DNA of 64,000 nt from Bifidobacterium pseudolongum subsp. globosum. Lineage in GTDB: Bacteria; Actinomycetota; Actinomycetes; Actinomycetales; Bifidobacteriaceae. The notes beneath the pieces were generated by a model. The model did no database searches, was not told where the DNA came from, and was given only the letters and a program-made list of their open reading frames with translations. Every line of letters starts with the position of its first letter. Position 1 is the stretch's first letter. Position numbers and translations under genes: made by a program. Shown in pieces: positions 207-36,125 of this stretch. The stretch is from NCBI RefSeq assembly GCF_004155535.1, contig NZ_RYUH01000009.1, forward strand, positions 248,001-312,000, written 5' to 3'.

Positions 207-317
207 GCCCCACCAGTGTAATGTCGGCGGGCATGGTTGTCACGCGGTGTCCGCGGTCCGGTGACATTGGCCGCACGCCATGGCATACTGGCCTATGGCG
301 CCAACCGGCGCCCACGG

Positions 318-404
318 TACGCAGGGGGACTCGCATACGAGTTGAGAGGGCCATCACATGGCCCGACCCTTTGAACCTGTTGGTTAACACCATCGTAGGG
401 AGGC
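318..404 (+). promoter_or_regulatory. TPP riboswitch (THI element) of tenA
   Basis: The leader carries the THI-box core in order: a G-run (GCAGGGGGA), TTGAGAGGG, then ACCCTTTGAACCTG, a TTGGTTAACACCA hairpin and CATCGTAGGGAGG. This is the classic thiamine pyrophosphate aptamer. The 3' conserved GTAGGGA merges directly with the tenA Shine-Dalgarno (GGGAGG at 398-403), so ligand binding could block ribosome access without a separate expression platform. That mechanism is inferred from position. Confidence 0.93.
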
Positions 405-411
405 GACGACC

Positions 412-2807: not shown

Positions 2808-5066
2808 TCATATTGTGAACACGGCGCTGAGTGCGAGCGCGCACAGCACAGCGGCCACTCCGGAGAGGAACCACCAGTCGCGCGCACGCATGCGCAATGC
2901 ATGCCAATGGGAACGCGGCTCGCCCTCCTGATAGCAGCGGGCGTCGAGCGCGAGCGCGAGGTCGTCCGCGTGGCGGATCACCCCCGCGAAGATCGGCACG
3001 ATGATCGCGCACATGGCGCGCACCCGCTGGGTGGGCGAGCCGGTCTCGATCGAGCCGCCGCGGGCCGCCTGCGCGTCGCGGATCGACACCGTTTCGTCGG
3101 CGATCGTCGGCAGGAACCGCAGGGCGAGCGACATGACGAGCGCGATCTCCTGCACATGCAGGACCTTGCGGAACACCGACATCATCGATTCGAACGCGTC
3201 GGTGAGCGCGGTGGGCGTGGTGGTGAGCATGATGACCGCGCCGAGCACGATCACGAGCATGAAGCGGATGGTGTAGAGCGCGGCGACGGTGAGGCCTCCC
3301 GTCGTCAACGCCCAGTCGCCGATATGCAGCAGTGGCGTGCCGCTGCGCACCACGAGCATGTTGAACAGGCCCATGATCAACAGCACGACCGCGAACATGC
3401 GCGTCGAACGCCACAACACACGCACGCCGAGCCTGCTCGCGGACGCGATCGCCAAGGTCGCCGCGCACCCCACGGCCAACTGCGTCCACGATGTCATCGT
3501 GAACGCGGAGAACATCAGCGCGAGGAATCCGATGACCTTCGCGCGCGGGTCGAGCCGGGAGATGACCGAATAACGCGCGTCCGACGGCGCGATGCGCGGT
3601 TCGGGCGCCTCTTCGCGCGCCGTCGTGCGCCCGCCGAACACGAGCATCGCATCGGCGAGCTGTTGCGCGGCGTGCATGTCGTGCGTGATGAGCAGGATCG
3701 TGACGCCTTGACTGTGCAAGGTGCGCATGATGGCGTGCACACGCTCCACAGCCGCCTCGTCGAGCGACGCCGTCGGCTCGTCCATGACGAGCACGCGCGG
3801 GCGGCAGGCGAGCACGCCGGCGATCGCGGCGAGCCGCTGCTGGCCTCCGCTGAGCGAGAACGGGTCCCTATCGGCGAGGTCGGCGATGCCGACGAGGTCG
3901 AGCGCCTCCTGCACGCGCGCACGCACGGCGGCGTCATCGAGCCCCTGGTTGCGTGGGCCATAGGCCACGTCGTCGCGCACGGTGGCGGCGAACAGCTGCC
4001 GTTCGGGGCGTTGCATGATCAGGCCGAGCGAACGGCGCAACGCCTTGCGTTGGCGCCGTTTGGCATGGTGCCAACGCAAGGCCTCGACGCATATGGCGCC
4101 TTCGTCGGGGGCGATCAGCGCGCACAGCAGACGCGCGAACGTCGTTTTGCCCGATCCGTTGGGGCCGATGAGCGCCACGGTGGAACCGCGTTCGATGCCC
4201 ACGGTCAGATCGTCGATCACCGGCGCGCCGTGGGCGTAGGCGAACGAGACATGGTCGAACACGACCGCCGGGTCGTGTGCGGCACGCCCCACGCGCGGCA
4301 GGTCGGGCAACGCGGCGCCGGGGCTGTGCACTTGGCTTGGTGTGCCGTGCGCGTGCGCATACCGTGCGGTCACGTCGCGCACCACGCCGTGCTCGACGGC
4401 GAGGATGCGGTCGGCGTGGGCCACTTCATCGGGGTGGTGCGTGACCATCACGATCGCGGTGCCGCGTTGGTGCACGCGTTCGATGATCGCGAGCACGTCG
4501 GCGCGCGCCTGCGGGTCGAGCATCGCCGTCGGTTCGTCGAGCACGAGCACGCGGCTGTCCATGGCGAGCATGCCGGCGATCGCGACACGCTGCTGCTGGC
4601 CGCCGCTCATGGCGGTGGGGTCGGCGTCGCGCAGGCCGTCCATGCCCACCGCGCTGAGCGCATCGTGCACACGGTCGCCGATCAGTGCCGGCGCCACGTT
4701 GAGGTTCTCCGGGCCGAACGCCACATCCGCGGCCACGGTCGTGGTCACGATCTGGTCTTCGGGATTCTGGAATACGACGCCGATCGAGCGGCGCGCCTTG
4801 CGGTATGCGTCGGCGTCGGCGCCATGCGCGTCATCGAACACGGTGTGGCCCATCAGTCTCACCGTGCCGTGGTCGGGGGCGGCCAACCCGGCGATCAGGC
4901 GCGCGAGCGTGGATTTGCCCGCGCCGTTGGGGCCCACGAGCGCGATGCGCTCACCGGGCCCGACGCGCAAATCCACGCCGTCGAGCACCCAAGTGGCGCC
5001 GCCGTCGTAGCTGAACCGCACGCCGTCGAGTTCGATCGGCGCGCGCGTGCCTGCGCCTCCCGTCAT
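2808..5066 (-). CDS. Fused ECF transporter EcfA-EcfA'-EcfT (riboflavin module)
   Basis: One 752-residue polypeptide joins all three energising parts of an energy-coupling-factor importer. ATPase 1 has Walker A at 45-53 (GPNGAGKST), signature SGGQQQR near 154-160 and LVLDEPT at about 174-180. ATPase 2 has Walker A at 301-309 (GPNGSGKTT), signature LSGGQQR near 405-411 and VMDEP at 428-431. From about residue 500 it is EcfT: several membrane helices and the two cytoplasmic coupling motifs AARGGS and LDARCYQEG. The ATG at 5066 overlaps the ribU stop in an ATGA, so translation is probably coupled. Separate EcfA, EcfA' and EcfT subunits are more usual; the single-chain form fixes stoichiometry. 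It powers RibU and may also serve other S components. Confidence 0.93.
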   Translation of the reverse strand: MTGGAGTRAPIELDGVRFSYDGGATWVLDGVDLRVGPGERIALVGPNGAGKSTLARLIAGLAAPDHGTVRLMGHTVFDDAHGADADAYRKARRSIGVVFQNPEDQIVTTTVAADVAFGPENLNVAPALIGDRVHDALSAVGMDGLRDADPTAMSGGQQQRVAIAGMLAMDSRVLVLDEPTAMLDPQARADVLAIIERVHQRGTAIVMVTHHPDEVAHADRILAVEHGVVRDVTARYAHAHGTPSQVHSPGAALPDLPRVGRAAHDPAVVFDHVSFAYAHGAPVIDDLTVGIERGSTVALIGPNGSGKTTFARLLCALIAPDEGAICVEALRWHHAKRRQRKALRRSLGLIMQRPERQLFAATVRDDVAYGPRNQGLDDAAVRARVQEALDLVGIADLADRDPFSLSGGQQRLAAIAGVLACRPRVLVMDEPTASLDEAAVERVHAIMRTLHSQGVTILLITHDMHAAQQLADAMLVFGGRTTAREEAPEPRIAPSDARYSVISRLDPRAKVIGFLALMFSAFTMTSWTQLAVGCAATLAIASASRLGVRVLWRSTRMFAVVLLIMGLFNMLVVRSGTPLLHIGDWALTTGGLTVAALYTIRFMLVIVLGAVIMLTTTPTALTDAFESMMSVFRKVLHVQEIALVMSLALRFLPTIADETVSIRDAQAARGGSIETGSPTQRVRAMCAIIVPIFAGVIRHADDLALALDARCYQEGEPRSHWHALRMRARDWWFLSGVAAVLCALALSAVFTI

Positions 5067-5662
5067 CGGTTGAGCAGATTCGAGATCGGCTTGTAGATGA
5101 GGAAGGTGATGACGCCGTGCAGCGTGAACTTGATCAGGTTGAACGGCAGCAGGATCGGCACGATCATCTTGGCCACCGCGGCCATCGACATGTGCGCGTA
5201 GAGCGGCGTGATGAACAGGTTGCCGATGATCGCGGCCACGATCGCGCACAGTGCGCCGACCACGATGCCGGCGAGGGCGCCCTTGCGCGAGGTGTGGCGC
5301 CGGTAGACCAACGCGGCCGGCACCGAAAGCGCCAATGCGACGCCGATCGCCATGATCGAGCCCCACGGATTGGTGAAGATGTGCGGCAGGAACCCGAGCA
5401 CGCTCACGATCGCAGCCGCGGAGGGGCCGTACGCGAAGCCGGCCACAAGGCAGACGATGCCGGACGGGTCGTATTTGAGCCACGGCGCCGCCGGCATGAG
5501 CGGGAACTCGAGGAAGCTGACAGCCATCGCGAGCGCCACGAACAGCGCATACATGGCGATGCGTTTGGTGGACCAGCGGCCTTGGTCGCCGGCTCCGGTC
5601 GTGTGCGCGTCGTCTGGGCGGCGGCTGCGAGGGGTGGATGAGGATATGGTGGACTTGCCCAT
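5063..5662 (-). CDS. ribU: RibU-type riboflavin S component of ECF transporter
   Basis: A 199-residue membrane protein with about six hydrophobic helices after a polar 30-residue N-terminus. It carries the RibU-like C-terminal FNLIKFTLHGVITFLIY and an LEFPLMPAAPWLKYDPSG region typical of riboflavin-specific S components, which bind vitamin outside the cell and hand it to the EcfAA'T module. The start at 5662 has AGGAG 9 bases upstream, placed just after the FMN aptamer. The riboswitch makes riboflavin by far the likeliest substrate. It overlaps the downstream fused ECF gene by four bases. Confidence 0.92.
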   Translation of the reverse strand: MGKSTISSSTPRSRRPDDAHTTGAGDQGRWSTKRIAMYALFVALAMAVSFLEFPLMPAAPWLKYDPSGIVCLVAGFAYGPSAAAIVSVLGFLPHIFTNPWGSIMAIGVALALSVPAALVYRRHTSRKGALAGIVVGALCAIVAAIIGNLFITPLYAHMSMAAVAKMIVPILLPFNLIKFTLHGVITFLIYKPISNLLNR

Positions 5663-5683
5663 AGGGGGTTCTCCTGTTTCTTC

Positions 5684-5820
5684 CATCCGGACTATGACCG
5701 TTGGCTCTGGATTCCGACCAGATCCACCGCTGCACGCGGGTTGCGGGCTCCGCCTTGGTCCGCCCTTGGGGCGTATGGCGCTACCGCCAGTAAGGAATTG
5801 CACCTTCCCTGAAACTTGGC
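5684..5820 (-). promoter_or_regulatory. FMN riboswitch (RFN element) of ribU
   Basis: Read on the minus strand, the leader shows the RFN blocks in order: CAGGGAAGGTGCAATTCC, TACTGGCGGTA, GAGCCCGCAAC, GGATCTGGTCGGAATCC, AGAGCCAACGG and ATAGTCCGGATGGAAG. These match the five-helix FMN aptamer. The ribU Shine-Dalgarno begins only a few bases after its 3' end, which fits translational control by FMN. Confidence 0.95.
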
Positions 5821-6077
5821 AGCACCATCTATACGCCATCCACACGATAATCGGACGGTTTGATGGCGGCCGTCTGTGGAAAACGACATCAAACCGGGAG
5901 TATCATGGAGTGTGTTACACGGCAGTACGAGTGGGAACAATCGTTTCCAGAGAAATGCGTCCATTATGTGAACACTCGCACTGGGGTGCAATATTTAACC
6001 ATTGAACTAATATATGATGGGAATGACGGCTTGAAGACGTGCCGTTGTGACGCGCACATACCATAGGAGAGGTTGCG

Positions 6078-6848
6078 ATGATTGAGACCGCACAGGCATT
6101 CGGCGTAGACATCGGGGGATCCGGCATCAAGGCTGCCCCGGTCAATCTGGAGAAGGGCGAGTTTGCACAGCCGCGCCTGAAGATCCTCACCCCGGAGCAT
6201 TCCACCCCCAAGGCCGTGGGCGACATTGTGCGCCAGCAGCTCGAGCATTTCGAGGTGCCCGAGGACGCGCCGGTCGGCATCGCGTTCCCCGCGCCGATCC
6301 ACCCGGGCAAGAAGCTCGACTTCATGGCCAACCTCGACCAGTCGTGGATCGGCGTGGACGTGACCGAGGTCTTCTCCGAGGCGTGCGGGCGCCCGGTGAC
6401 CGTGGTGAACGACGCCGACGCCGCGGGCCTCGCCGAACAGCAGTTCGGCGCGGCCAAGGGTCAGGAGGGCCTTGTCATCGCCACCACGCTCGGCACCGGC
6501 ATCGGCACCGCGCTCATCTACGACGGCGTGCTAATCCCGAACACTGAACTCGGCCACATCCAGCTGCCGAAGGGCAAGGGCGACGCCGAGAAGTACGCGG
6601 CCTCGTCGGTGCGTGAGAAGCTCGACATGGGCTACAAGAAATGGGCCAAGCGCCTGACCAAGTACTACAGCCTCATGGAGCTCTACTTCAGCCCGGAGCT
6701 GTTCGTGGTCGGCGGCGGTGTGAGCCGTGTGTCCGAGAAGTTCCTGCCGTACGTCGACATCAAGACCCCGATGGTGGCGGCCACGCTGCACAACGAGGCG
6801 GGCATCATCGGCGCCGCCTACTACGCGAGCGTGCAGCAGCACGACTGA
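6078..6848 (+). CDS. ppgK: Polyphosphate glucokinase (ROK family)
   Basis: PpgK phosphorylates glucose to glucose 6-phosphate using polyphosphate (and often ATP) and is characteristic of actinobacteria. The 256-residue protein opens with the phosphate-binding GVDIGGSGIKAA, has VVNDADAAG as the glucose-binding/catalytic-Asp segment, then TTLGTGIGTALI, ELGHIQL, and VVGGGVSR near the C-terminus. The QYSLMELYFSPELFV-like region distinguishes PpgK from simple ROK repressors or kinases. AGGAGAGG sits 6 bases before the ATG. It is monocistronic, closed by a 15-bp hairpin. It supplies glucose 6-phosphate for central metabolism. Confidence 0.95.
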   Translation: MIETAQAFGVDIGGSGIKAAPVNLEKGEFAQPRLKILTPEHSTPKAVGDIVRQQLEHFEVPEDAPVGIAFPAPIHPGKKLDFMANLDQSWIGVDVTEVFSEACGRPVTVVNDADAAGLAEQQFGAAKGQEGLVIATTLGTGIGTALIYDGVLIPNTELGHIQLPKGKGDAEKYAASSVREKLDMGYKKWAKRLTKYYSLMELYFSPELFVVGGGVSRVSEKFLPYVDIKTPMVAATLHNEAGIIGAAYYASVQQHD

Positions 6849-6883
6849 TCGCGGCCGGTCGGGCCTGGGCGTATCCAAGCCAA

Positions 6884-6925
6884 GCGAAGGGGCGTTGCGT
6901 GCATTGGCATGCAACGCCCCTTCGC
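6884..6925 (+). terminator. Hairpin terminator after ppgK
   Basis: A perfect 15-bp stem (GCGAAGGGGCGTTGC at 6884-6898 with 6911-6925, 12-base loop) lies 35 bases after the ppgK stop. It ends just before the -10 element of the next gene. Confidence 0.75.
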
Positions 6926-6936
6926 CATGCCTGGCG

Positions 6937-6942
6937 TACAAT
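6937..6942 (+). promoter_or_regulatory. -10 box of the aminotransferase; predicted leaderless start
   Basis: TACAAT ends 7 bases before the ATG at 6950, and no Shine-Dalgarno fits in the gap. A transcript beginning 7-8 bases past the -10 box would start at the initiation codon itself. Confidence 0.55.
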
Positions 6943-6949
6943 CACACCC

Positions 6950-8113
6950 ATGCGTTTTTCCCACCGAGTCGACATCAGCGAACCCAATCCGATCGCCCTC
7001 GCGGAGCGTGCGATGCGCGCGCGTGGCGCCACGCCCATCGCGCTCAATGATTCGAACCCCACCCACCATGGGTTGGCGCCCCACCTGCTGCCCGAACCGT
7101 ATGCGGCGGAACCGCGCGGCCAGTGGTATGCGCGCGAGGCGCTCGCCGCGTATCTGGGCGGCGGCGCGGGCGCGGACGACCTCTATCTGCTCAGCTCGAC
7201 GTCGCAGGCCTACGCGTGGCTCATGAAACTGCTGTGCGACGCGGGGGACGCCGTGCTCGCGCCGAAGCCCGGCTATCCGCTCATCGAATCGATCGCGCGC
7301 CTCGAATGCGTGGAACCGCGGTTCTACCAGCTGCGGTTCGACGGATCGTGGACGATCGACACCGCGCAGATCGAGCAGTTGCTGCGTGACGACACCGGGC
7401 ACCGCATCCGCGCGCTCATTGTGATCAACCCGAACAACCCCACCGGCTCGTACGTCAAACCAGGCGAACGCGAACAGCTCGTCGCCCTGTGCCGTGCGTA
7501 CGACGTGGCGATCATCGCCGACGAGGTCTTCTTCGACTACGCCCTCGAACCGTTCGAAGGCAACCGCAGGTTCGCCGGTGAAAGCGGCGTGCTGACCTTC
7601 GCGCTCGACGGCTTCTCCAAGACCCTGGCCGCGCCGCACGCCAAAGTCGGGTGGATCCGCGTCTCCGGCCCTGATGACGATGTGCGCGAGGCGACGCGCC
7701 GGCTCGACGTGATCGCCGACGACTTCCTGCCGATGAGCGAACTCGTGGCACGCGCCGTGCCGCCGATGCTCGCCGCGGCGCCCGATCAGCTGCAGCGGGT
7801 GCGCGCACGCACGCAGGGCAATCTGCGCCACCTGCATGAACTCCTGCGCGCTGACGCGCTTGGCGTGGTCGATGTGCTGCGCGCCGAAGGCGGCTGGAAC
7901 GTGCTGCTGCGGTTCCCGAGCGTGATCGATGAGAACGAGCTCGTGCTGTCGTTGATCGAGTGTGCCGGCGCGAGTGGTCAGCCCGGGTATTTCTTCGATA
8001 TGCCGGCGAACGGCTACCTCGCGCTTTCGCTGCTCGCCGAACCGGAGCGGTTCGCGTCGAATGTGCGGCTTGTGCTCGACGCAGTGTCGCGTGCGCTCGA
8101 TGTGAGCGACTGA
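6950..8113 (+). CDS. Pyridoxal-phosphate aminotransferase, class I/II
   Basis: A 387-residue fold-type I aminotransferase. PLP-binding features are visible: VINPNNPTGS, IIADEVFFDY (Asp that pairs with the pyridine nitrogen, Tyr partner) and the Schiff-base lysine in GFSKTLAAPHAKVGWI (Lys224). The C-terminal domain holds GWNVLLRFP. These features fit an aspartate- or alanine-type transaminase; the amino donor cannot be fixed from sequence. Longer upstream starts would run back through the ppgK terminator, so the ATG at 6950 is preferred. That ATG follows TACAAT by 7 bases with no ribosome-binding site. The last 100 bases overlap the convergent ABC ATPase gene. Confidence 0.88.
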   Translation: MRFSHRVDISEPNPIALAERAMRARGATPIALNDSNPTHHGLAPHLLPEPYAAEPRGQWYAREALAAYLGGGAGADDLYLLSSTSQAYAWLMKLLCDAGDAVLAPKPGYPLIESIARLECVEPRFYQLRFDGSWTIDTAQIEQLLRDDTGHRIRALIVINPNNPTGSYVKPGEREQLVALCRAYDVAIIADEVFFDYALEPFEGNRRFAGESGVLTFALDGFSKTLAAPHAKVGWIRVSGPDDDVREATRRLDVIADDFLPMSELVARAVPPMLAAAPDQLQRVRARTQGNLRHLHELLRADALGVVDVLRAEGGWNVLLRFPSVIDENELVLSLIECAGASGQPGYFFDMPANGYLALSLLAEPERFASNVRLVLDAVSRALDVSD

Positions 8114-8895
8114 TATTTGCTGCGGATGAGCTGCGTGTAGAACGAGGCGGCACGTTGCGGTTCGCCGTCGAACACGAGATGCGTCTCGTCCATGACGATC
8201 GTACGGGTGATGCCATACGACTCGTGGGTGATCAACCCCACGTCGTGCGTCGAGAAGATGACCGGTGTGCCGCAGCTGAGCAGTCGGCGCGCCACATGCG
8301 CGGAACTGATCTCATCCAGACCCCGCGTGGGCTCGTCGGCCACGAGGATGGCGGGGGATGTGGCGCTCGCCACAGCCCCCGCGAGCAGGTGCAGGCGTTC
8401 GCCGTCCAGTTCCTCGTACGGCACATGCCTGACCTCAAGCAGGTCAAAGCGTTCGAGCAGTGCGCCCACGCGTGCGATGCGCTCGTCGAGCGACACACCA
8501 TGGCGTTTGAGGTATTCGAGCAGCGCGGCCTCCACACTCGATGCGCGCCGGAAATGCGATTCGACATGCGCAAGGTCCACGATCCCCACGGCCGCCTCGA
8601 TCCTGCGGCGGCCCGCATGGTGCGTGGGTTCGCAGTCTGTGCCGTCCAGATTGAAGGCGATCGATCCGCCTGTGGGAATGGCCGCGGCGCCCAACAGCCT
8701 GACGAGGGTGCTTTTGCCGGCGCCGTTGAGTCCGATGATGGCCACGTTGCCTTCACCGGGGGCGAATGTGCAGCTCGTGGGGGCCAGTCCCACGGTGCCG
8801 TCCGCGTAATGGTATGACGCATCGGTGAGCGTGATGCCCACATGGCTGGGCGTGTGGGGCGGATCGCGATGCAGCAGGGTCGAAAGAAAGTTCAT
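8014..8895 (-). CDS. Stand-alone ABC/ECF-type ATPase
   Basis: A 293-residue nucleotide-binding protein with Walker A GLNGAGKST (around residues 55-63), Walker B ILVADEPTRGLD and switch histidine in FSTHD. The ABC signature is degenerate: LDGERLHLL stands where LSGGQ is expected. That and the overall layout resemble the EcfA/CbiO family, yet no membrane partner is adjacent. The last 33 residues are Ser/Arg/Ala-rich and encoded antisense to the aminotransferase C-terminus, so the original stop may have been lost. The ATG at 8895 lies 8 bases from TACAAT, again without a Shine-Dalgarno. It could energise an S component encoded elsewhere. Confidence 0.82.
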   Translation of the reverse strand: MNFLSTLLHRDPPHTPSHVGITLTDASYHYADGTVGLAPTSCTFAPGEGNVAIIGLNGAGKSTLVRLLGAAAIPTGGSIAFNLDGTDCEPTHHAGRRRIEAAVGIVDLAHVESHFRRASSVEAALLEYLKRHGVSLDERIARVGALLERFDLLEVRHVPYEELDGERLHLLAGAVASATSPAILVADEPTRGLDEISSAHVARRLLSCGTPVIFSTHDVGLITHESYGITRTIVMDETHLVFDGEPQRAASFYTQLIRSKYQSLTSSARDTASSTSRTFDANRSGSASSESAR

Positions 8896-8903
8896 AAGTG
8901 CCC

Positions 8904-8920
8904 ATTGTAGGCATGCCTAC
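8904..8920 (-). promoter_or_regulatory. -10 box overlapping a perfect 14-bp palindrome
   Basis: On the minus strand TACAAT (8909-8904) precedes the ATPase ATG by 8 bases. It overlaps GTAGGCATGCCTAC (8907-8920), a perfect 14-bp palindrome and a plausible operator. The palindrome also spans the stop of the upstream membrane-protein gene. Confidence 0.45.
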
Positions 8921-11010
8921 GGCAGCAGCGTGAACCACGAGCGCACCGCATGGTAGAGCCCCGGCTCGTTGACCACAAGCATGTCGTCGCGCCCCACCAC
9001 GAAGCACGACAGCACCCACACCGCGATGGCATAGGCCACCACGATCGCCACGATCGCGCGCACCCACCGACTGCCTTGCATGGCGCGTGCCGCCACGGGC
9101 AGCGCGCACAACATGAACAGCCACCCGAAATCGGCCATGTAGCGCCATCCGAACCCACCCACAATGGAGTCGAACACCAGCAGCACAACAGCCAAGGCGA
9201 GCATCGTGACCAACGTGGGCCACAATGTTCCCAGGCGCCGCCGCAGGAACGGTACCGCGAACGCGAGCGCGGCGAGCGGCATGAGCACGCACAGTCCGCC
9301 GATGGACGGTTCGGTGAACGACCATGCGGGCAACGGGGTGGGGGATATCTCGAGGAACGGGAACGTGCCGGTCGGGCGCAACGGCAGGAACAGATAGTAC
9401 AAGATGGTGCCCGGCACATTGCACCATGGCGTGCTGAAGCTCGTCATGTCGGTCACGGTGATCTGGTAGGCGTTGCCGAAATCGAACGGCGAACCGAACC
9501 GCAACTGGTTGTATGCCAGGACCGGGGCCGCCACCACGGCGGCCGGTACGAGCATCCACATGCACCAAGCCCCCAATCCATGCCAGTCACGGGCATGGAA
9601 CCATACGCACAGATGACGCCAGAACAACGGCAACGCCAGCACCGCGGTGAGTGCGAATGTGGGCCGGCACCCGAGTGTGGCGGCGATGCATGCGGCGCCC
9701 GCGGCCACGTGAGGCCACGAGAGCGTGCCGTCGCCGCGTTCGGCGCCCAGCCACAGCCACAACCCCCATGCCACCAGCAACAGCGAGGCCGCGAATGGAA
9801 TCGAATAGAAATTGGTGCGGAACCACAGGTACGGCGCGGTGGCGCCAATCAGATACGCCACACAGGCAAGCACCACAGTGGCGAGCGGTACGGCGCCGAC
9901 GATGCGCTTGAGCACGCGGATCACCAACAGGCACGAACACACCGCCATGCCGAACATGAGCAGCAGTTCGGCGCAGCGTGCGGGCAGCATCACGCCGCCG
10001 GGCACGAACCACGACGAGACCACACGGAACGGCGCGAACAGCAGCAGCGACGGCAGCACACCGAAATACGAGTACCAGTGGCCGTCGCGGAACGCGTAAT
10101 CCCAGTAGACCGGCGAGACCCCCTCGTCGAACAGATGGTCGCGTTGGGCCACGTCGTACGGGTTGGCTGCCTGCGTCAACTCCTGCGGCACCGGCAGATC
10201 GAGCCACAGCCGGCCATGCAACAGCGCATCGGCGACATGCCCATACTGGTCGAAGTCGTAGGTGTAGCCGCCGTCGGTATGGAACCGCAACGGTGCGGCA
10301 AACCGGATGCCCCACACCACATGCCAGACCGTATACAACGCCAGGGGAGCGAGCGCAAGCGCGAACAGCCACCGCTGCCGCTTGCTCGCCGTGTCCAGCC
10401 GGGTGCGCCACAGCCATGAGCCGGGCAGGAACGCGATCACCACAAGCGCCATGGCCATCATCGTACCCACGCGGACCCAATCGAAATCGAATGGCACACG
10501 CACATTGGCGCGCACGTTCTCGATCGGCACGAGTGCGCCACGGGTCTCTTCGATCCAGATCGTGGTGGTGCCCGTCGCGTTGTCGCGGATGTACAGCGAC
10601 CGCGGGGCGTACGGGCTCACCGATTGCTCGGCCCCGCTCACGCCATGCGCCTCGAGGCGCAGGTGCACGGTCGTGACGACGTCATCGGACCACGGTCCGG
10701 CGAGCGTCGCGTCGATCCTCCGCATAGGCGTCGGATCCACGCGCCAATACGCCGACGAGCCGTCCGACTGCGTACGCAGCCACGCCGTGGTCGGGTCGGT
10801 CACCTTGAGCATTCCCTCAGCGGTGCGCTGCAGTCCAGGGCCGAGCTCGTTGCGCACGGAGACGGAATCGCCGCTCGCGCCGATCGACAGCACGTAGGGC
10901 AGGTTGAACCACGCGCATTCCACGAACACGACGAGGAAAACGGCGATGAGTACGCGGCGCGTCAGGCGGAGCAGACGCGCGCGGCGGGGCAGCGGTGAAG
11001 TCACGTGCAT
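8917..11010 (-). CDS. Large polytopic membrane protein of unknown function
   Basis: About 697 residues. An N-terminal helix (roughly 20-40) is followed by a soluble, probably extracellular, domain of about 160 residues, then about eleven hydrophobic helices to the end. Segments such as YTYDFDQYGHVADALLHGR and GHWYSYFGVLPSLLLFAPF resemble GT-C glycosyltransferase-like or O-antigen-type membrane enzymes, but no catalytic motif was certain. The ATG at 11010 lies one base after a TAGAAT box on the minus strand; an in-frame GTG at 11004 is exactly 7 bases after it and would be the leaderless start. It diverges from the next gene with only 47 bases between the ATGs. Confidence 0.7.
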   Translation of the reverse strand: MHVTSPLPRRARLLRLTRRVLIAVFLVVFVECAWFNLPYVLSIGASGDSVSVRNELGPGLQRTAEGMLKVTDPTTAWLRTQSDGSSAYWRVDPTPMRRIDATLAGPWSDDVVTTVHLRLEAHGVSGAEQSVSPYAPRSLYIRDNATGTTTIWIEETRGALVPIENVRANVRVPFDFDWVRVGTMMAMALVVIAFLPGSWLWRTRLDTASKRQRWLFALALAPLALYTVWHVVWGIRFAAPLRFHTDGGYTYDFDQYGHVADALLHGRLWLDLPVPQELTQAANPYDVAQRDHLFDEGVSPVYWDYAFRDGHWYSYFGVLPSLLLFAPFRVVSSWFVPGGVMLPARCAELLLMFGMAVCSCLLVIRVLKRIVGAVPLATVVLACVAYLIGATAPYLWFRTNFYSIPFAASLLLVAWGLWLWLGAERGDGTLSWPHVAAGAACIAATLGCRPTFALTAVLALPLFWRHLCVWFHARDWHGLGAWCMWMLVPAAVVAAPVLAYNQLRFGSPFDFGNAYQITVTDMTSFSTPWCNVPGTILYYLFLPLRPTGTFPFLEISPTPLPAWSFTEPSIGGLCVLMPLAALAFAVPFLRRRLGTLWPTLVTMLALAVVLLVFDSIVGGFGWRYMADFGWLFMLCALPVAARAMQGSRWVRAIVAIVVAYAIAVWVLSCFVVGRDDMLVVNEPGLYHAVRSWFTLLP

Positions 11011-19499: not shown

Positions 19500-19656
19500 G
19501 CCTTCCTCCTGCTGTAATGCTGAACTGCAGAAACTACCGCACCCAATATATTGCATGTGCGTATGACGCGCTAGAACCTGTGAATTCATGGGTATGGCCT
19601 CTCATCGAAGCCTTTGGCCTACAGGTATGTCATGAATTGCGGCTACATTCAGCACA

Positions 19657-19744
19657 GACACGGGGGCTTGGTATAACAGGCTGAGATGGGGCGAACGCTC
19701 CGACCGCATGAACGTATACCGGGTAATGCCGGCGCACGGATGTC
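19657..19744 (+). promoter_or_regulatory. TPP riboswitch of the broken ykoE copy
   Basis: THI-element blocks are clear: GACACGGGGGC, AGGCTGAGAT, CCGACCGCATGAACGTA, CCGGGTAATGCCGG and GCACGGATGTC. P1 can form between GACA (19657) and TGTC (19741). Downstream, CCCGTGTCTTTC (19752-19763) can pair either with the aptamer's GACACGGG or with the Shine-Dalgarno GAAAGGCAC (19772-19780). This is a thiM-like translational switch. Confidence 0.92.
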
Positions 19745-19785
19745 TTGGGAACCCGTGTCTTTCCATGAATAGAAAGGCACAACAA

Positions 19786-23143: not shown

Positions 23144-23197
23144 GGAAGTGCCTTTCCTTGTCATATGCATATATATGGTGGAAGGCACGGGGAAAGA

Positions 23198-23284
23198 GAC
23201 GTCCGTGCGCCGGCATTATCCGATTCACGTTCATGCGGTCGAAGCTCGCGCTTCCTCTCAGCCTGCTTGGCAAGCCCCCGTGTC
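23198..23284 (-). promoter_or_regulatory. TPP riboswitch of the intact inverted ykoE
   Basis: On the minus strand: GACACGGGGGC, CAGGCTGAGAGG, CGACCGCATGAACGTGA, GGATAATGCCGG, GCACGGACGTC. Past the aptamer, CCCCGTGCCTTCC (23192-23180) can pair with GACACGGG of the aptamer or with the Shine-Dalgarno GGAAAGGCAC (23157-23148). Confidence 0.93.
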
Positions 23285-23502
23285 CGCATCCAGTAAAGCA
23301 GAGACCATGCACTTTCGTCGTTCGAACGGATTACAGGGCGTCGGCGGCGCGGAAGATCGACGGAAGAAAGATATCCCAATGAGAAGGGCGCTACCCGTAA
23401 CGAAAGCGCCGCCCGTACAGGGCATACTGGCCGCAGGGAGAGTGAGGATTCCTCTTACGGGCAGTCGAGAGAGGGGATGGCGGCACTCAGGGCGATGATG
23501 AT

Positions 23503-29821: not shown

Positions 29822-29867
29822 ATGATGCATCCAATGACCATGTGAATAACAGGAGGACATGCATCAT
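29822..29867 (+). promoter_or_regulatory. Inverted repeat around the ribosome-binding site of the small peptide gene
   Basis: ATGATGCAT (29822-29830) and ATGCATCAT (29859-29867) are perfect complements; the second arm includes the first two bases of the start codon, and AGGAGG (29851-29856) is in the loop. Such a hairpin could limit translation initiation. Confidence 0.4.
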
Positions 29868-30027
29868 GGGCATCTCATCATTCATTGCGACCATCGCATT
29901 TGTGGCGACCACCGCCGTCGCGCCGGCCGCGCCGGCCGACATGCGTTCGATGGAACTGGGGGAGGGCAGGAATCCGTCCACGATGGAATATTGCCCTCCC
30001 TGGGCCCATGCGCTCGGGCTGTGCTGA
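29866..30027 (+). CDS. Small secreted-type peptide with C-terminal Cys-X9-Cys
   Basis: A 53-residue reading with a perfect AGGAGG 9 bases before its ATG. Residues 1-24 are hydrophobic and end in APAAPA, resembling a signal sequence although no basic N-terminal residue is present. The rest is short and ends in YCPPWAHALGLC (Cys43 and Cys53, the last residue). No known family was recognised. The gene lies 93 bases before a histidine kinase, in an island that also encodes a regulator and an ABC operon. A pheromone or modified-peptide precursor is plausible but unproven. Confidence 0.5.
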   Translation: MGISSFIATIAFVATTAVAPAAPADMRSMELGEGRNPSTMEYCPPWAHALGLC

Positions 30028-30120
30028 CCGTTACCCGAACCAGCCAGGAGTAAGGGCCTCCTTCCAGTCAACGGGCTGGCCCCTTACCATGACGGCATGT
30101 TTGTTTTTAGGTAATACATC

Positions 30121-31263
30121 ATGAAGCAAAAACTCATCGACATCCTCGGCCACATCCGGCATCCCTATCTTTTCCTGGTCATTGCGATGTTCTCGTGCAT
30201 GCTGCAATTCGATATATGGAACTTCGGCAAAGCCAACGGCGCCGCGATCATCACCGCCCTCGTCATCGTGCAGGCCCTGGCGGTCACATGCTACTGGTTC
30301 CCTGTCCAGGCCGCGCTCGCCATCCTCGTGTTCAATGGCATAGGCGAATACGCCATTGCCGGGTATGGGTTGTTCACGTCGTATATGATGCTCATGGCGT
30401 TGCTCATCCTGAGCTATAAACTGGGCAACCGCGGCGCCATCGCCGTGTATGTGGCCGTGATCTGCTACACCATCCTCGAAGGTGTGCTGCGCCCTGAGTT
30501 CATGCCTGCGCAAACGGTGACGTCATTCTGCGCTGCTTACACGCTCATCGTCGTTCTCGGACGCTTCTTCCGGTGGAACAGCGAACGCAACCGCAAGTAC
30601 CGCCAACTGCTGCGCGCACAATCCGAACTGCGCATCCTGCGCCGCGACCAGATGCTCGCCGCGCACATCCACGACACCTTGTCTCAGAAACTCTCCGCCA
30701 TCTCGATGATTGCCCAGTTCCAACACACTGCTGATGGCGAGGATGCGGATGTCTGGCGGCGGATCGTGGAATACAGCAGCGCCGCCCAGCTGGACATGCG
30801 CACACTGATCCGCCAATTGCACGACAGCGGCGAAAGCGAGGAACTTCAGTTCGATGCGTTCACGCGGGACCTGCGTGCGGAAATCGACGAAGACGAACAA
30901 TACCTGCGCGACAACGGCTTCCAAGGGCATACCGATGTGCGCATCGATGAACACGCGGCCACAACGCGCGTCCTCCAGACCTCGTCGGTCGCCTTGATGG
31001 TGGTGCATGAGATCTATACGAACATCTTCAAACACGCCGATCCCGCGCAGCCATATGCGGTGTCCATCGGCATCAGTGCAGACGGCATCCGCATGGATGC
31101 GCGCAACACCATCGCCGCCGAGGGCCAAGTGGTGGACTACGGCGGCAGTGGGTTGCAGTCCCTCACCACCGTGGTCCGTGAACTCGGTGGCACACTGGTT
31201 GGGTCAGCGGATGGGGTCCAATGGCATACACGGGCGTTCATTCCTTTGCAGGAGGCTGAATAG
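30121..31263 (+). CDS. NarL-type sensor histidine kinase
   Basis: A 380-residue membrane kinase. Five or six helices fill residues 15-150, with almost no extracellular loop, a layout typical of sensors that detect ligands in the membrane or short peptides. The HisKA_3-type dimerisation helix begins near 160, with the phospho-acceptor His184 in AAHIHDTLSQKLSAI. The ATPase domain is reduced: HEIYTNIFKHA replaces the N box and GSGLQSL the G box. The likely partner is the LuxR-type regulator at 32.1-32.8 kb, which lies on the opposite strand with a lipoprotein gene between. No strong Shine-Dalgarno is present (TAGGTAATACATC). Confidence 0.88.
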   Translation: MKQKLIDILGHIRHPYLFLVIAMFSCMLQFDIWNFGKANGAAIITALVIVQALAVTCYWFPVQAALAILVFNGIGEYAIAGYGLFTSYMMLMALLILSYKLGNRGAIAVYVAVICYTILEGVLRPEFMPAQTVTSFCAAYTLIVVLGRFFRWNSERNRKYRQLLRAQSELRILRRDQMLAAHIHDTLSQKLSAISMIAQFQHTADGEDADVWRRIVEYSSAAQLDMRTLIRQLHDSGESEELQFDAFTRDLRAEIDEDEQYLRDNGFQGHTDVRIDEHAATTRVLQTSSVALMVVHEIYTNIFKHADPAQPYAVSIGISADGIRMDARNTIAAEGQVVDYGGSGLQSLTTVVRELGGTLVGSADGVQWHTRAFIPLQEAE

Positions 31264-31272
31264 GCCGCCCTG

Positions 31273-31980
31273 TCAGCCTAGTGGTTTCCATATCTCCAAC
31301 CGGGGTTGGAGAAGTGTTGGTGCGGTTGTGGCCATGCAGGTGAGCGTGTCACTGTCGTTGATGTCGAAGCTGAACCGGTCGAATGCGTGTTCGCTCGTAT
31401 CATTCATATACAGGTCGGACTCCTTCCGGTATTGGTCCATCGTGTAGTTCTGTGGCACCAGGTTCTTGCGGTGCAGGCAATCGACCAAAGCTACCTCAGG
31501 ATCGCCATAGAACTCAGGATTGCCGAGCCGTGTCCGGTATGCCAAATCGATGGCAGCAACCCGTGATGTTCGGCATTCACCGATGTCGTCATTCAGTTTG
31601 CGGTCTTGCTCTTCCGTTAGACCCTCAGACGATACGTATGGCGGTGCGAAGTAAATGCCGTTGGTGAGATTCTGCGGTGGTTTGGTGTACCCCTTATCTA
31701 CCAAGCACTGCCTATAGGACTCCCATGCTGCACTGTAGGAAGCATACGAAATCTCCCCATCGTGTTGCAGCGCAGCCCGTAGGACTTCTTTCTGTGACTC
31801 ATCGTATTGGTCATCATCAAGCAACGAATCGATAAGGTCGGTCATTCCGCTTGCAAATTTTCCGGTATCAACTCCTGTCATGGCATTGTTGGATTCGGCT
31901 TCGCTCTTCGAGCAGGACGACAGGCTGGCAACACAAGCGATGATTGTGACTACTGACAATATCTTGTGAATGCTTCTCAT
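31273..31980 (-). CDS. Lipoprotein of unknown function
   Basis: A 235-residue protein starting MRSIHKILSVVTIIACVASL, a lipoprotein signal sequence with lipobox LSSC (Cys at about residue 23), so it should be anchored outside the membrane. The mature part is acidic and helical, with four cysteines (RQCLVDKG, GECRTSR, VDCLHRK, LTCMATT) that could form two disulfides. I recognise no family. The start at 31980 has GAGGGG 5 bases upstream. It lies between the kinase and the regulator and runs in the same direction as the regulator, 116 bases downstream of it. Confidence 0.75.
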   Translation of the reverse strand: MRSIHKILSVVTIIACVASLSSCSKSEAESNNAMTGVDTGKFASGMTDLIDSLLDDDQYDESQKEVLRAALQHDGEISYASYSAAWESYRQCLVDKGYTKPPQNLTNGIYFAPPYVSSEGLTEEQDRKLNDDIGECRTSRVAAIDLAYRTRLGNPEFYGDPEVALVDCLHRKNLVPQNYTMDQYRKESDLYMNDTSEHAFDRFSFDINDSDTLTCMATTAPTLLQPRLEIWKPLG

Positions 31981-32096
31981 GATACCCCTCAAATGGTGAC
32001 TTCTCCGTCGAGTACAGTCCAAATATTTTATTATAGCCGTTTCGGGGAAAGCTCGTGGCAAACCGTGCGGTGTTGTCGGCAAAAGACTACATGGCA

Positions 32097-32768
32097 TTAT
32101 TCGCCCCGTCTGTCGCGCCATGCGATGATCGCCTCGACCTTTGTGCGCACACCCAGTTTCGCGTAGATGCGCTGCGCATAGGTTTTGATGGTGGACTCGG
32201 AGGTGTTGAGCCGTCTGGCGATCCACGAGGTTGTTTTGCCCAGATCGATCCACGTCATGACTTCTTCTTCGCGCGGAGACAGCATGACCATGCGAAGAGG
32301 GGCCACCTGCTGTTCCTCGCTGAGACGGCGGTGGGCCTCGGCAGCGCTTTCCGTGGAGAAACGCCCGTCGGCGGGTATCCGGCATTCGCAGAGAGCCATG
32401 ACGGCTTGGCAGATGGCCTGCGGCCTGTCCTTGGGCAGCAGGCATTGCGCCCCACCGTCCAGCATTGCGTCATGGAAGCGGGCAAGGATGAACGAAGTCA
32501 CTCCCACGAGTATGATCTCGGCATCGTTGGCGCGGATGCGCCGGCAGACCTCACTTCCGGTCATGCCTTCCAAGGAGGCGTCAATGATGAGCGCGTCCGG
32601 CTTGGTGGCGGGTGCCGAGCAGAGGGACACCGCCCTGTTCCCGTCGGTCTCTTTCCAGATCACCTCGCTCTGCGGCAGATAGGTACGGACCACATACTGC
32701 AAGGCCTCCAAGGCAAGGGCGTCGTTGTCCACGATCCCGATTCTGATGTGTTTTCCCGGATAGCGCAT
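32097..32768 (-). CDS. LuxR/NarL-type response regulator
   Basis: A 223-residue two-domain regulator. The receiver has the acidic pair in IVDNDAL, the phospho-accepting Asp63 in ALIIDASLEGMTG and a conserved Lys in LLPKDRP. The C-terminal LuxR helix-turn-helix is SPREEEVMTWIDLGKTTSWIA followed by ESTIKTYAQRIYAKLGVRT. AGAAGGGGG lies 4 bases before the ATG. It is the natural partner of the kinase at 30.1 kb. Its gene diverges from the ABC operon at 33.1 kb; the 325-base gap contains a tandem decamer that could be its binding site. Confidence 0.92.
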   Translation of the reverse strand: MRYPGKHIRIGIVDNDALALEALQYVVRTYLPQSEVIWKETDGNRAVSLCSAPATKPDALIIDASLEGMTGSEVCRRIRANDAEIILVGVTSFILARFHDAMLDGGAQCLLPKDRPQAICQAVMALCECRIPADGRFSTESAAEAHRRLSEEQQVAPLRMVMLSPREEEVMTWIDLGKTTSWIARRLNTSESTIKTYAQRIYAKLGVRTKVEAIIAWRDRRGE

Positions 32769-33093
32769 TATTCCCCCTTCTGAACATGTCCCATCATACT
32801 AATGGAGACGGTGCATGCAGCGGCACATCAATGCGGAGCATCAGAGTCGCCTTCGCTGTTGGTCTGAAAATAACCGCCATACGACTTAATAAGGCTTAAT
32901 AAGGCGCACAAGTGACTATATCTGCTGTCATCCAAAGACGACAACAACACCCGTGGTGCGGAAAATCCCGTGAGGCTCTCTATGCTTTGGGAGGTGTTGG
33001 ACATACACATAACGCGCATGCCGGTTGCGCTCGCAGGAAGTGTGCGCGAGACTGGATATGCACTGTGGCATACCGCGAGGCAGGGGAGGGGTC
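32769..33093. other. Divergent intergenic region with a tandem decamer
   Basis: No gene is evident in this 325-base gap between the response regulator (leftward) and the ABC operon (rightward). Its left half is comparatively AT-rich and includes the decamer repeat at 32885-32904. It probably contains both promoters. Confidence 0.55.
32885..32904 (+). promoter_or_regulatory. Tandem direct repeat, candidate regulator site
   Basis: CTTAATAAGG occurs twice with no gap, so the copies are 10 bp apart, about one helical turn. It lies 116 bases upstream of the response regulator start and 190 bases before the ABC operon start, where an activator might bind. Confidence 0.4.
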
Positions 33094-34182
33094 ATGACGA
33101 GGAAGCAGCAACACAATGGCAAGCGCAGAGCCGCACCCGCGTTGACTTGGGTGTTGCTTGCGGCGGCCACCGCCGCCGCGCTTACGGTGGGGGCGTGCGC
33201 ATTGTGGTTGCCGGACCGCGCGCCGTCGGTGCTTGGCGCCCCAAGCATGGTGGAATCGGCGCCGGCCAGTGTGCAGGAATACTCCGGCACACAACAGGTG
33301 AACGTGGTGCCCACGGTCTCCGGCAACCGCGACCTGCTGGGCAACGCCAGCGGCACCGTGACCGAGAACTGGACGGTGGGAGAGCTGCGTTCCGGTACAC
33401 GCGCCTACCAGGTCAACGATAGGACCGTTGTCGCCCTGCACACCGCAACACCCTTGTACCGCGACCTCAAGGTGGGTGACAAGGGCGAGGATGTCCGCTC
33501 GTTGAACGACGAGCTTGGCCGGCTGGGCTACGACAGTGTGCCGCAATCCGCGGAATACAACTGGAACACCGGCAACGGCTGGCGCCAGCTCATGGTGGAC
33601 TCAGGCAATTCGGACGGCGTTGCGCCAGAGGACATGGACATGCGTCTGTCAGACACCATGTGGATTCCCGAGGATGTGGTGAACGTGCGGGACTGGACGG
33701 CAGCCCAGGGCAGCGCCGTGCAGGCGGGCGCCCCGTTGGGTACGGTGCCGGGCGGCTTGGTGAAGCTCGCGATCCGCAACGGATCGCCTTCCGACAAGGA
33801 GCGCACACTGACGGTGTTCGGTGTTGCGGCACCACTGCCCGCAGGCTCCACGGAGATCACCGATGCCGGCCTGCTCGCACAGATCGCCGCCACGGAAGGC
33901 TACCAAGGCAAGACACCGGAAGAACGGGCGGCAGGCATGGACGCCCAGCTCACGCTGAACCAGACCATCCAAACGCTGCGGGTACCCGCCGGCGCCGTGT
34001 TCGGTACCGATGGGGCCTCGGCTTGCATCGCCACGGGCACGACGCAAGCGCCCGAGACGGTACCGGTGCGCATCATCACAAGCGAATTGGGCGCATCGCT
34101 TGTACAGCCCGAACACATGGATGCCAACGACGTGCATGATGTGCTGATCGGCCCCACGCTGGCCACCTTGCGGTGCGGGTGA
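33094..34182 (+). CDS. Membrane-anchored peptidoglycan-binding / membrane-fusion protein of an ABC system
   Basis: A 362-residue protein with an N-terminal membrane helix (about 17-38, WVLLAAATAAALTVGACALWL) and an extracellular remainder. Around residues 125-150, YRDLKVGDKGEDVRSLNDELGRLGYD matches a PG_binding_1 repeat; the flanking beta-rich parts resemble HlyD/MacA-type adaptors. Such proteins pair with MacB-like exporters in Gram-positives. The ATG has GGGGAGGGG just upstream. It is the first gene of a tight operon: its TGA overlaps the GTG of the ATPase gene. Confidence 0.75.
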   Translation: MTRKQQHNGKRRAAPALTWVLLAAATAAALTVGACALWLPDRAPSVLGAPSMVESAPASVQEYSGTQQVNVVPTVSGNRDLLGNASGTVTENWTVGELRSGTRAYQVNDRTVVALHTATPLYRDLKVGDKGEDVRSLNDELGRLGYDSVPQSAEYNWNTGNGWRQLMVDSGNSDGVAPEDMDMRLSDTMWIPEDVVNVRDWTAAQGSAVQAGAPLGTVPGGLVKLAIRNGSPSDKERTLTVFGVAAPLPAGSTEITDAGLLAQIAATEGYQGKTPEERAAGMDAQLTLNQTIQTLRVPAGAVFGTDGASACIATGTTQAPETVPVRIITSELGASLVQPEHMDANDVHDVLIGPTLATLRCG

Positions 34183-34799
34183 GCGGCATGCGGTTGGTAG
34201 TGCATGACCTGGCCCACCGGTTCCCCGGAACCGATCTGCTGTTCGAACATCTTGACATGACCGTTGAGCCGGGAATGACCGTGGCGATCTGTGGCCCGTC
34301 CGGTTGCGGGAAGTCCACGCTGCTGTCGATTCTCGCCGGTTGGGAAAAGCCGTATGCGGGCAGTGTGGAACGCGAGGGCATCGCCCGGACCGGCTGGGTG
34401 TTCCAGAATCCGGTGGGTGTGGCGCAACGAAGCGCATTGGACCATGTGGTGTTCCCGCTGCTTGCCAAGGGATTCAGCCGTGAGGAAGCGGAACCGCAGG
34501 CCTTGGAGGCGATGGGGCTGTTCGATCTGGACCATGCGGCCGACCGGCGGTTCAGCGAGCTGTCTGGCGGCGAGGCGCAACGGCTCATGTTGGCGCGCGC
34601 CGTGTGCTCACGGCCCGACATGCTGCTCGTGGACGAGCCCACGGCACAACTGGACACACGGACCGCGCATTCGGTGAGCCATGTGCTCGGCAATCTTGCG
34701 AACCAAGGCATGATCGTGCTGGTGGCCACGCATGATCCCGATACCAGGGACGCCTGCGACCATGTGGTCGATCTTGCACAGTACGCACCCGAGGCGTGA
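34179..34799 (+). CDS. ABC transporter ATPase (MacB/LolD type)
   Basis: A 206-residue ATPase subunit. Walker A is GPSGCGKST, Q-loop VFQNPVG, signature LSGGEAQR, Walker B MLLVDEPTAQLD, and switch histidine in VATHDPDT. Small size and these features fit the MacB/LolD group that drives FtsX-like permeases. GTG at 34179 overlaps the previous stop as GTGA, implying translational coupling; an ATG at 34188 is an alternative. Its own stop is again GTGA before the permease gene. It would energise the permease encoded 14 bases downstream. Confidence 0.88.
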   Translation: MSGMRLVVHDLAHRFPGTDLLFEHLDMTVEPGMTVAICGPSGCGKSTLLSILAGWEKPYAGSVEREGIARTGWVFQNPVGVAQRSALDHVVFPLLAKGFSREEAEPQALEAMGLFDLDHAADRRFSELSGGEAQRLMLARAVCSRPDMLLVDEPTAQLDTRTAHSVSHVLGNLANQGMIVLVATHDPDTRDACDHVVDLAQYAPEA

Positions 34800-34813
34800 A
34801 CAGGGGGAAGGCC

Positions 34814-35899
34814 ATGAGACTCAAGTCGATACTCTCTGAGGCGATGCGCAATGTGGGCAGTGGCACTGCGCACGCCATAGCACTGTTCCTCGCCGTGCTG
34901 CTCGGTGGCGTGCTGCTGGGCGGTTACGAAGCCTATACGGTCGTGGCCATGGAACATGAGGCCATGACGCGCGTGGAGGCCATGGCCGACGTGGACACAG
35001 TGGTCGGCGGCACGGTGGACGGCAACGCATGCGACCGGCTCGCCCATGTGCCAGACGCCCCCGTCGCGCAATCGGGCGCCATGCGCACCGGTGAGGAGGT
35101 CACGCCGTTGTCCACACCGAACAACGCCCTGCAATCATTCGAGGTCACGCAGGGCATGCTGGCGCTCATCGCGTCGAATGGCGCCGTCGCCTCACCAATT
35201 GACACGTCGGGGATCTGGGTGTCGACCGACGTGGCGCATGACTTCGGGCTCACGGTCGGCTCCATATTGGCCACGGACCATGGCAACGCCACCGTGGCGG
35301 GCGTCTACCCCTGGCCCAACGACGGCCGGGACACACGGTTCGCCTACGCGTTCCTTGTGCCACGCGCCGCCTCCTTGGGCGACTACAACGAATGCTGGAT
35401 ACGCCAATGGCCGCGTTCGGAACCGACGAGCAACCTCTTGTACGCCACGCTGCGTGTGGGCAATGGGCAGAACCAGGCCGGTGTGGTCGCGCTCAACAAG
35501 GGTTTCGACGCGCACTACGACCCGTATGCCACGTACATGGCGCGCACCACCCGTTTGATCCCGTTCCTCGCGGCGTTTCTGGGCCTTGCCATCGGTGTGA
35601 TCGCCGTGCGCATGCGCAGACTCGAATACGCCGCCGCGCTGCATTCAGGGGAGTCAAAACCGGCGCAATTGCTCGGCATATGCGTGGAGACGCTCGTATG
35701 GGCTGGATTGGCCACGGCGGGCTCATGCGCGCTCATCGCCGCCTACGGTGTGCGCATGGCCGTCGGGGACACCGCGTTGGTCATCGCGACCGCATGCCGT
35801 GCCCCAGTGGCGTTGCTGTGCGCCGTGGTGCTTACGGCGCTCGCCAGTGGCCTGGCTGTGCGGCAGTCGCAATTGTTCCGCCTTTTCAAAGGCCGGTGA
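34814..35899 (+). CDS. FtsX/MacB-like ABC permease
   Basis: A 361-residue permease with FtsX/MacB topology: one N-terminal helix (about 18-42), a large extracellular domain of 190-200 residues, then three helices from about 245 to the end (FLAAFLGLAIGVIAVRM, a helix near 290, and ALLCAVVLTALASGLAV). A RLEYAALHSG-like coupling segment follows the second helix. AGGGGGAAGGCC precedes the ATG at 34814. With the two upstream genes it forms a complete adaptor/ATPase/permease system that may export a peptide, possibly the 53-residue product at 29.9 kb, or give resistance to one. Confidence 0.82.
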   Translation: MRLKSILSEAMRNVGSGTAHAIALFLAVLLGGVLLGGYEAYTVVAMEHEAMTRVEAMADVDTVVGGTVDGNACDRLAHVPDAPVAQSGAMRTGEEVTPLSTPNNALQSFEVTQGMLALIASNGAVASPIDTSGIWVSTDVAHDFGLTVGSILATDHGNATVAGVYPWPNDGRDTRFAYAFLVPRAASLGDYNECWIRQWPRSEPTSNLLYATLRVGNGQNQAGVVALNKGFDAHYDPYATYMARTTRLIPFLAAFLGLAIGVIAVRMRRLEYAAALHSGESKPAQLLGICVETLVWAGLATAGSCALIAAYGVRMAVGDTALVIATACRAPVALLCAVVLTALASGLAVRQSQLFRLFKGR

Positions 35900-35950: not shown

Positions 35951-35958
35951 CGGAACTC

Positions 35959-36052
35959 GACACGGGGGCTGATGCGCGCGGCGCATCGGCTGAGAGAGGC
36001 CAAGCCTCGACCGATTGAACGTGAATCCGGACAATGCCGGCGCACGGACGTC
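35959..36052 (+). promoter_or_regulatory. TPP riboswitch of ykoE-ECF operon
   Basis: Blocks in order: GACACGGGGGC, a long GATGCGCGCGGCGCATC hairpin, GGCTGAGAGAGG, CGACCGATTGAACGTGA, TCCGGACAATGCCGG, GCACGGACGTC. CCCGTGCCTT (36059-36068) can pair with the aptamer's ACACGGG or with AAGGCAC of the Shine-Dalgarno (36114-36120), as in the other two copies. Confidence 0.94.
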
Positions 36053-36125
36053 GAATTTCCCGTGCCTTATCGCCATGGGCGCCACACCGGCGTCCATATG
36101 GACAGGAAAGAGAAAGGCACTCATT

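Follow-up and report, generated by a model that had tools for sequence, protein, structure and literature searches.

The locus examined here raises the question of what is encoded by a 53-codon gene lying in front of a sensor kinase gene, and how its product relates to the proteins encoded around it. The genes form an island in the 64-kb window (the whole stretch of DNA that was analysed, on contig C23), with an M20 dipeptidase gene (end 29815) on one flank and a TPP-riboswitch-preceded thiW/ykoE-like ECF operon on the other. The following features were assigned to the island.

29851-29856 (+): AGGAGG ribosome-binding site of the peptide gene, read from the sequence, 9 nt 5' of the ATG and retained in both B. 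pseudolongum genomes
29866-30027 (+): 53-aa peptide precursor, with a leader of approximately residues 1-24, a linker and the core C43-PPWAHALGL-C53
30121-31263 (+): six-TM sensor histidine kinase of the HisKA_3 class, short-looped, the likely receptor (PF07730, DesK matches in PDB, structural model)
31273-31980 (-): lipoprotein with an SSC lipobox and four more family-conserved cysteines, a likely output (alignment of 28 homologues, model pLDDT 81)
32097-32768 (-): NarL/LuxR-type response regulator (Response_reg and GerE domains)
33094-34182 (+): adaptor-like membrane-anchored protein, a dispensable neighbour (syntenic homologues; no Pfam or NCBIfam match)
34188-34799 (+): ABC transporter ATPase (PF00005, 98.6 bits)
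34814-35899 (+): permease-like protein of the ABC operon (syntenic homologues; no Pfam, NCBIfam or PDB-sequence match)

The last three genes make up an adaptor/ATPase/permease operon (33094-35899, plus strand). The initial annotation had listed the regulator ahead of the lipoprotein; in fact the lipoprotein comes first, and both genes are on the minus strand.

The 53-codon frame, its perfect AGGAGG, the hydrophobic leader and the cysteine-terminated tail were all recovered as first described, with Cys43 and Cys53 at the positions claimed. The translation is MGISSFIATIAFVATTAVAPAAPADMRSMELGEGRNPSTMEYCPPWAHALGLC, with the tail YCPPWAHALGLC. A tblastn search of 112 genomes of the genus retrieved orthologues with 83% identity in both B. 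pseudolongum genomes, as well as weak matches in G027, G039, and G033 amid many chance matches. In a separate kinase search, homologous kinases were located directly downstream of exactly these three weak matches. Reading the DNA 5' of each kinase homologue revealed the peptide in nine further genomes, in agreement with the predicted recurrence of the short gene and of Cys43 and Cys53 beside related kinases, and both cysteines are retained down to 28% kinase identity. The window peptide has the tail EYCPPWAHALGLC, and its counterpart in G034 and G062 is EYCPDWAHKFGLC. The tails upstream of homologous kinases are ECPAWMHALGWC (G007), GCNAIMHWLGLCLV (G022), GCNAFLHWLGLCLI (G039), DCNAVMHWLGLC (G026), ICLDWMHALGWC (G033), and GCASWMHALGLC (G027); the tail in G005, where the kinase shares only 28% identity with the window kinase, is HCPPILKWLCR.

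Comparison of the window peptide gene with its B. pseudolongum orthologue in G034 gave a dS of 0.33 and a dN of 0.10, and the ratio of 0.32, which indicates purifying selection, is close to that of the kinase (0.27). This selection and the recurrence upstream of homologous kinases indicate that the small gene is real. Relative to the B. pseudolongum peptide, the leader has hardly changed, whereas residues 25-53 have a dN of 0.15 against 0.04 for the whole kinase, a pattern that in this one comparison resembles pherotype drift.

A profile of nine peptides and then one of 23 were searched against 189 Bifidobacteriaceae genomes. By our count from these profile searches, the family occupies about 57 places in 47 genomes of five genera. 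Its members share a plan of short hydrophobic leader, variable linker and conserved core. Among the 38 members tabulated, the uninterrupted hydrophobic run has a median of 14 residues and often stands behind Lys/Arg2, and the last two cysteines are spaced by seven residues in 26, nine in 11 and eight in one. The N-terminal Lys/Arg is missing from leaders of the window's subfamily. Linkers between the hydrophobic run and the core comprise 15-34 residues. Two core types were recognized, C-P-x-W-L-x-W-L-C (Cx7C) and C-x-x-W-M-H-A-L-G-[LW]-C (Cx9C), and further cores include CPPPLYWLCGK, CPTWLQWLCGKGK, CPPWLLWLCGR, CPAWLSWLCDR, CPPPLEWLCGHKK, and CPIFMHALGMC. The two cysteines are invariant in all 37 aligned members. 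The cores also have Pro, Trp and Leu positions in common, with Trp present in most, and they are short, with a net charge near zero in most. A second member in the source genome (C18:128406-128561, minus strand; ECPPWIPPWLCS) is divergent from a regulator-kinase pair. The leaders of the peptide genes at L147 (G042) and L142 (G066) contain in-frame stops, and the kinases alongside appear intact; judged by these stops, the two genes look decayed, and the strains are possibly 'receptor only'.

A scan of 23 peptide members found no consistent Pfam or NCBIfam family, the profile had zero matches among PDB sequences, and PADLOC reported nothing for the window peptide and its neighbours. Among 396 genomes of the order and 396 of the phylum searched with profiles, none outside Bifidobacteriaceae contained a convincing member, and as far as seen the family is restricted to Bifidobacteriaceae. 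Two outside matches were inspected; they lie inside open frames of 186 and 300 codons and look like chance.

The 23 profile seeds had been gathered partly by their closeness to kinases, so the association with signalling genes was counted on non-seed matches alone. Of 25 such matches in other genomes (E<=0.0021), 23 adjoin a HisKA_3 kinase and/or a NarL-type regulator, which bears out the proposed link between peptide, kinase and regulator. The two exceptions are a match on a contig of 3.7 kb, where the lipoprotein is still present, and one in G053 (contig C5), which is another Cys-rich secreted protein and a false positive. The source genome (2.13 Mb) has five HisKA_3 matches over the cutoff, and chance adjacency is therefore expected at about a few per cent. 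The adjacency is maintained across several gene layouts. In the window's type the peptide gene precedes the kinase gene and the regulator is on the opposite strand; other loci are ordered peptide-regulator-kinase or regulator-peptide-kinase, or have the peptide gene convergent with a regulator-kinase pair or divergent from it. No peptide was detectable beside 14 of the 30 related kinases in the kinase-search set. Another locus of the source genome, L179 (G000:C18:56000-70000, positions 4880-9511), has three members of the window lipoprotein's family flanking a regulator-kinase pair, and no recognizable peptide gene was found there.

The kinase (380 aa) matches PF07730 (HisKA_3) with 25.1 bits at a cutoff of 24, its profile matches DesK in PDB (E 4.4e-20), and it carries the dimerisation domain, H box and ATPase motifs of the HisKA_3 class (HPK7, DesK/NarX). 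His184, Asn301, and Gly344 are invariant. The predicted structure consists of six TM helices with short loops followed by DHp and ATPase domains, consistent with the original description of a kinase with almost no extracellular loops. Orthologues with 93% identity are present in B. pseudolongum subsp. pseudolongum DSM 20099 and subsp. globosum LMG 11569, the only two named. Core distance correlates weakly with the distance between kinase sensors (Mantel r 0.19, p 0.006), and the correlation with catalytic distance is lower (r 0.12, p 0.04). On the kinase tree, ring sizes cluster: they change 2 times, compared with 8.8 for shuffled labels. Between the window and G034/G062, the sensor half of the kinase was not significantly enriched in substitutions (p about 0.16).

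The lipoprotein was rightly named as a partner in so far as it is a recurrent neighbour. Besides the lipobox, four cysteines are conserved among its 28 aligned homologues, and the family has no Pfam match. The model is fairly confident and mostly helical, and none of the PDB matches listed for its fold was significant (best Z 4.6 over 60 residues). Members of this lipoprotein family can also stand in tandem, with up to four copies per region (L065, L092, L094). The ATPase of the ABC operon is ABC_tran; the other two products match no Pfam or NCBIfam family, neither HlyD-type for the adaptor nor FtsX/MacB for the permease, so that 'MacB type' is a tentative label drawn from layout and topology. 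In G022, G026, and G033, the peptide, kinase and regulator genes have the same M20 and ykoE-like genes on either side, and the ABC genes are missing. The lipoprotein is also absent from G022 and G026, and G033 has only a fragment of it, beyond the ykoE-like operon. The lipoprotein and ABC genes are thus recurrent yet dispensable. A role of the ABC system in exporting or resisting the peptide is not supported, given these three genomes and the signal-peptide-like leader of the peptide itself. Since peptide, kinase and regulator are kept without the ABC genes there, the lipoprotein and ABC genes more plausibly represent regulated output than part of the signalling or export machinery. A direct repeat at 32886-32905 (TTAATAAGGC) was considered as a regulator site and rejected, as it is not conserved in B. 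pseudolongum; with this repeat tested against B. pseudolongum, no autoregulatory or regulator site was found at the island.

The reading that best accounts for the gene, its conservation, its association with kinase and regulator genes and its invariant cysteines is that the 53-aa product is secreted and released as a peptide ligand of the adjacent kinase, which on the sequence data we consider fairly probable. The leader would direct export of the precursor, and the released tail would be closed outside the cell, probably by a Cys43-Cys53 disulfide, to which the two invariant cysteines point. Judging from the pairing of the genes, the released core may bind the short-loop sensor of the six-TM HisKA_3 kinase next door, which would then phosphorylate the LuxR-type regulator; such phosphotransfer from kinase to regulator is standard in HisKA_3/NarL pairs. 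The neighbourhood suggests that the regulator would control the nearby envelope and export genes, namely the lipoprotein and the ABC operon. Autoinduction may also occur, and core and receptor would differ between species, as in pherotypes.

A released signal is favoured because the two cysteines are invariant, because adjacency in 23 of 25 matches far exceeds the expected few per cent and persists through several layouts, because islands can be reduced to peptide, kinase and regulator, and because the peptide gene is under purifying selection and the kinase has short loops. The short hydrophobic run followed by a linker of some length, as in secreted precursors, and the weak covariation of core and sensor argue in the same direction. 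Against this reading, a dedicated exporter, protease or modifying enzyme does not accompany the peptide throughout the family, the window subfamily's leaders do not have the N-terminal Lys/Arg, and nearly half of the related kinases were without a detectable peptide. The weakness of the sensor covariation, the lack of significant sensor enrichment and the lack of an autoregulatory site also count against it.

Several known systems resemble this arrangement. In ComX-ComP-ComA of Bacillus ComQXPA, the kinase has PF07730 and the regulator has a LuxR-type DNA-binding domain, and, as here, a small peptide gene lies next to a polytopic kinase and its regulator (PMC4008528). Most bifidobacterial cores have a conserved Trp, and in ComX a Trp near the peptide end is isoprenylated. 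The bifidobacterial peptides differ in the two invariant cysteines of the core, the signal-peptide-like leader and the several gene orientations, and the kinase has six TM helices compared with 8-10 in ComQXPA. No ComQ isoprenyl transferase is encoded at the locus, and the genome's single polyprenyl synthase is encoded on contig C3, away from the peptide. The system would work like ComX-ComP-ComA, but with no ComQ at the locus it is not a ComQXPA member. In Agr systems, AgrD consists of a hydrophobic leader and a short Cys core, and the kinase receptor has short loops. The bifidobacterial peptide likewise combines a leader with a short Cys core, and the kinase loops are short; it differs in having two cysteines in place of the thiolactone, and a HisKA_3 kinase with a LuxR-type regulator. 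The source genome gave no match to the AgrB model PF04647 (a model that also matched weakly, and in few of the controls), and with no AgrB the system is not an Agr member.

The main rival to a released signal is a membrane-retained, MgrB-like accessory microprotein, whose two-Cys loop would dock on the kinase of its own cell and either inhibit it or act in redox sensing. MgrB, a small membrane protein of bitopic topology, binds the kinase PhoQ, and its periplasmic C28 and C39 are essential and thought to be disulfide-linked (PMC10576120). The bifidobacterial peptide has a similar size (about 50 aa), an N-terminal hydrophobic segment and two conserved cysteines about 10 apart, presumably extracytoplasmic as in MgrB (PMC10576120), and kinase adjacency and invariant cysteines fit this explanation equally well. 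However, the hydrophobic run is shorter than in MgrB and is separated from the conserved core by a long variable linker, and the whole looks more like a cleavable signal peptide; the gene also adjoins its kinase, which belongs to another family than PhoQ. We regard membrane retention as unlikely. Slightly less likely still is a small bacteriocin or secreted effector whose production or immunity is under the adjacent two-component system, with the lipoprotein and ABC genes serving immunity. These genes do recur, and other small secreted proteins are found near some loci, but peptide, kinase and regulator persist without ABC genes, the peptides are strongly tied to kinases and not to ABC genes, and short cores of mostly near-zero net charge do not fit. 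Control of kinase expression in cis, through translation of the small ORF or stalling on it, is highly improbable. In the window's subfamily the ORF does lie a short distance 5' of the kinase gene, and conservation is highest at its C-terminus. But about 20 loci have the gene convergent with the kinase or divergent from the regulator-kinase pair, layouts that exclude a cis leader or attenuator for the whole family, and C-terminal extensions (LV, LI, R, GK, GSEYYA) move the stop codon relative to the core.

With the released-signal reading preferred, bifidobacteria probably have, on this genomic evidence, a peptide signalling system so far undescribed. The chances are about even that the family is a Bifidobacteriaceae-wide peptide quorum-sensing family, in which signal-peptide precursors carry disulfide-closed Cx7C or Cx9C cores that serve as species-specific pheromones for paralogous HisKA_3/NarL systems. 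The peptide family is apparently undescribed; no description was present in the papers found, subscription journals and preprints being outside the literature search. The papers found on bifidobacterial cell-cell signalling or quorum sensing concern AI-2/LuxS, and a 2025 paper calls bifidobacterial quorum-sensing mechanisms poorly understood (PMC12436685). If true, no peptide quorum sensing would have been described before this in bifidobacteria, which are dominant infant-gut and probiotic organisms, and it would operate without a ComQ- or AgrB-like enzyme. Many kinases previously without a ligand would gain candidate ligands, and the defined short cores make the ligand-receptor family directly testable with synthetic peptides. 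The system would also offer ways to influence colonisation as well as envelope and secretion genes, and would supply inducible promoters for use in bifidobacteria.

Some further features of the loci were recorded. The island at L063 (G007; 7385-9897) is degraded: the ATPase is lost, the permease truncated and the lipoprotein frame interrupted, and no regulator was detected beside the kinase; peptide and kinase are intact. Secreted proteins of a family of about 155-165 aa are encoded beside convergent peptide/kinase loci (L132, 3424-3921; L142, 3145-3612; L143, 2219-2683) and are possible output genes. Lactococcin-972-like products were suspected near some loci and set aside, with no Pfam support. 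The 64-kb window contains four TPP riboswitches, at 313-418 (+), 19650-19758 (+), 23184-23291 (-), and 35952-36066 (+), and one FMN riboswitch at 5671-5820 (-). The TPP riboswitch at 35952-36066 is the one that sits before the thiW/ykoE-like ECF operon bounding the island.
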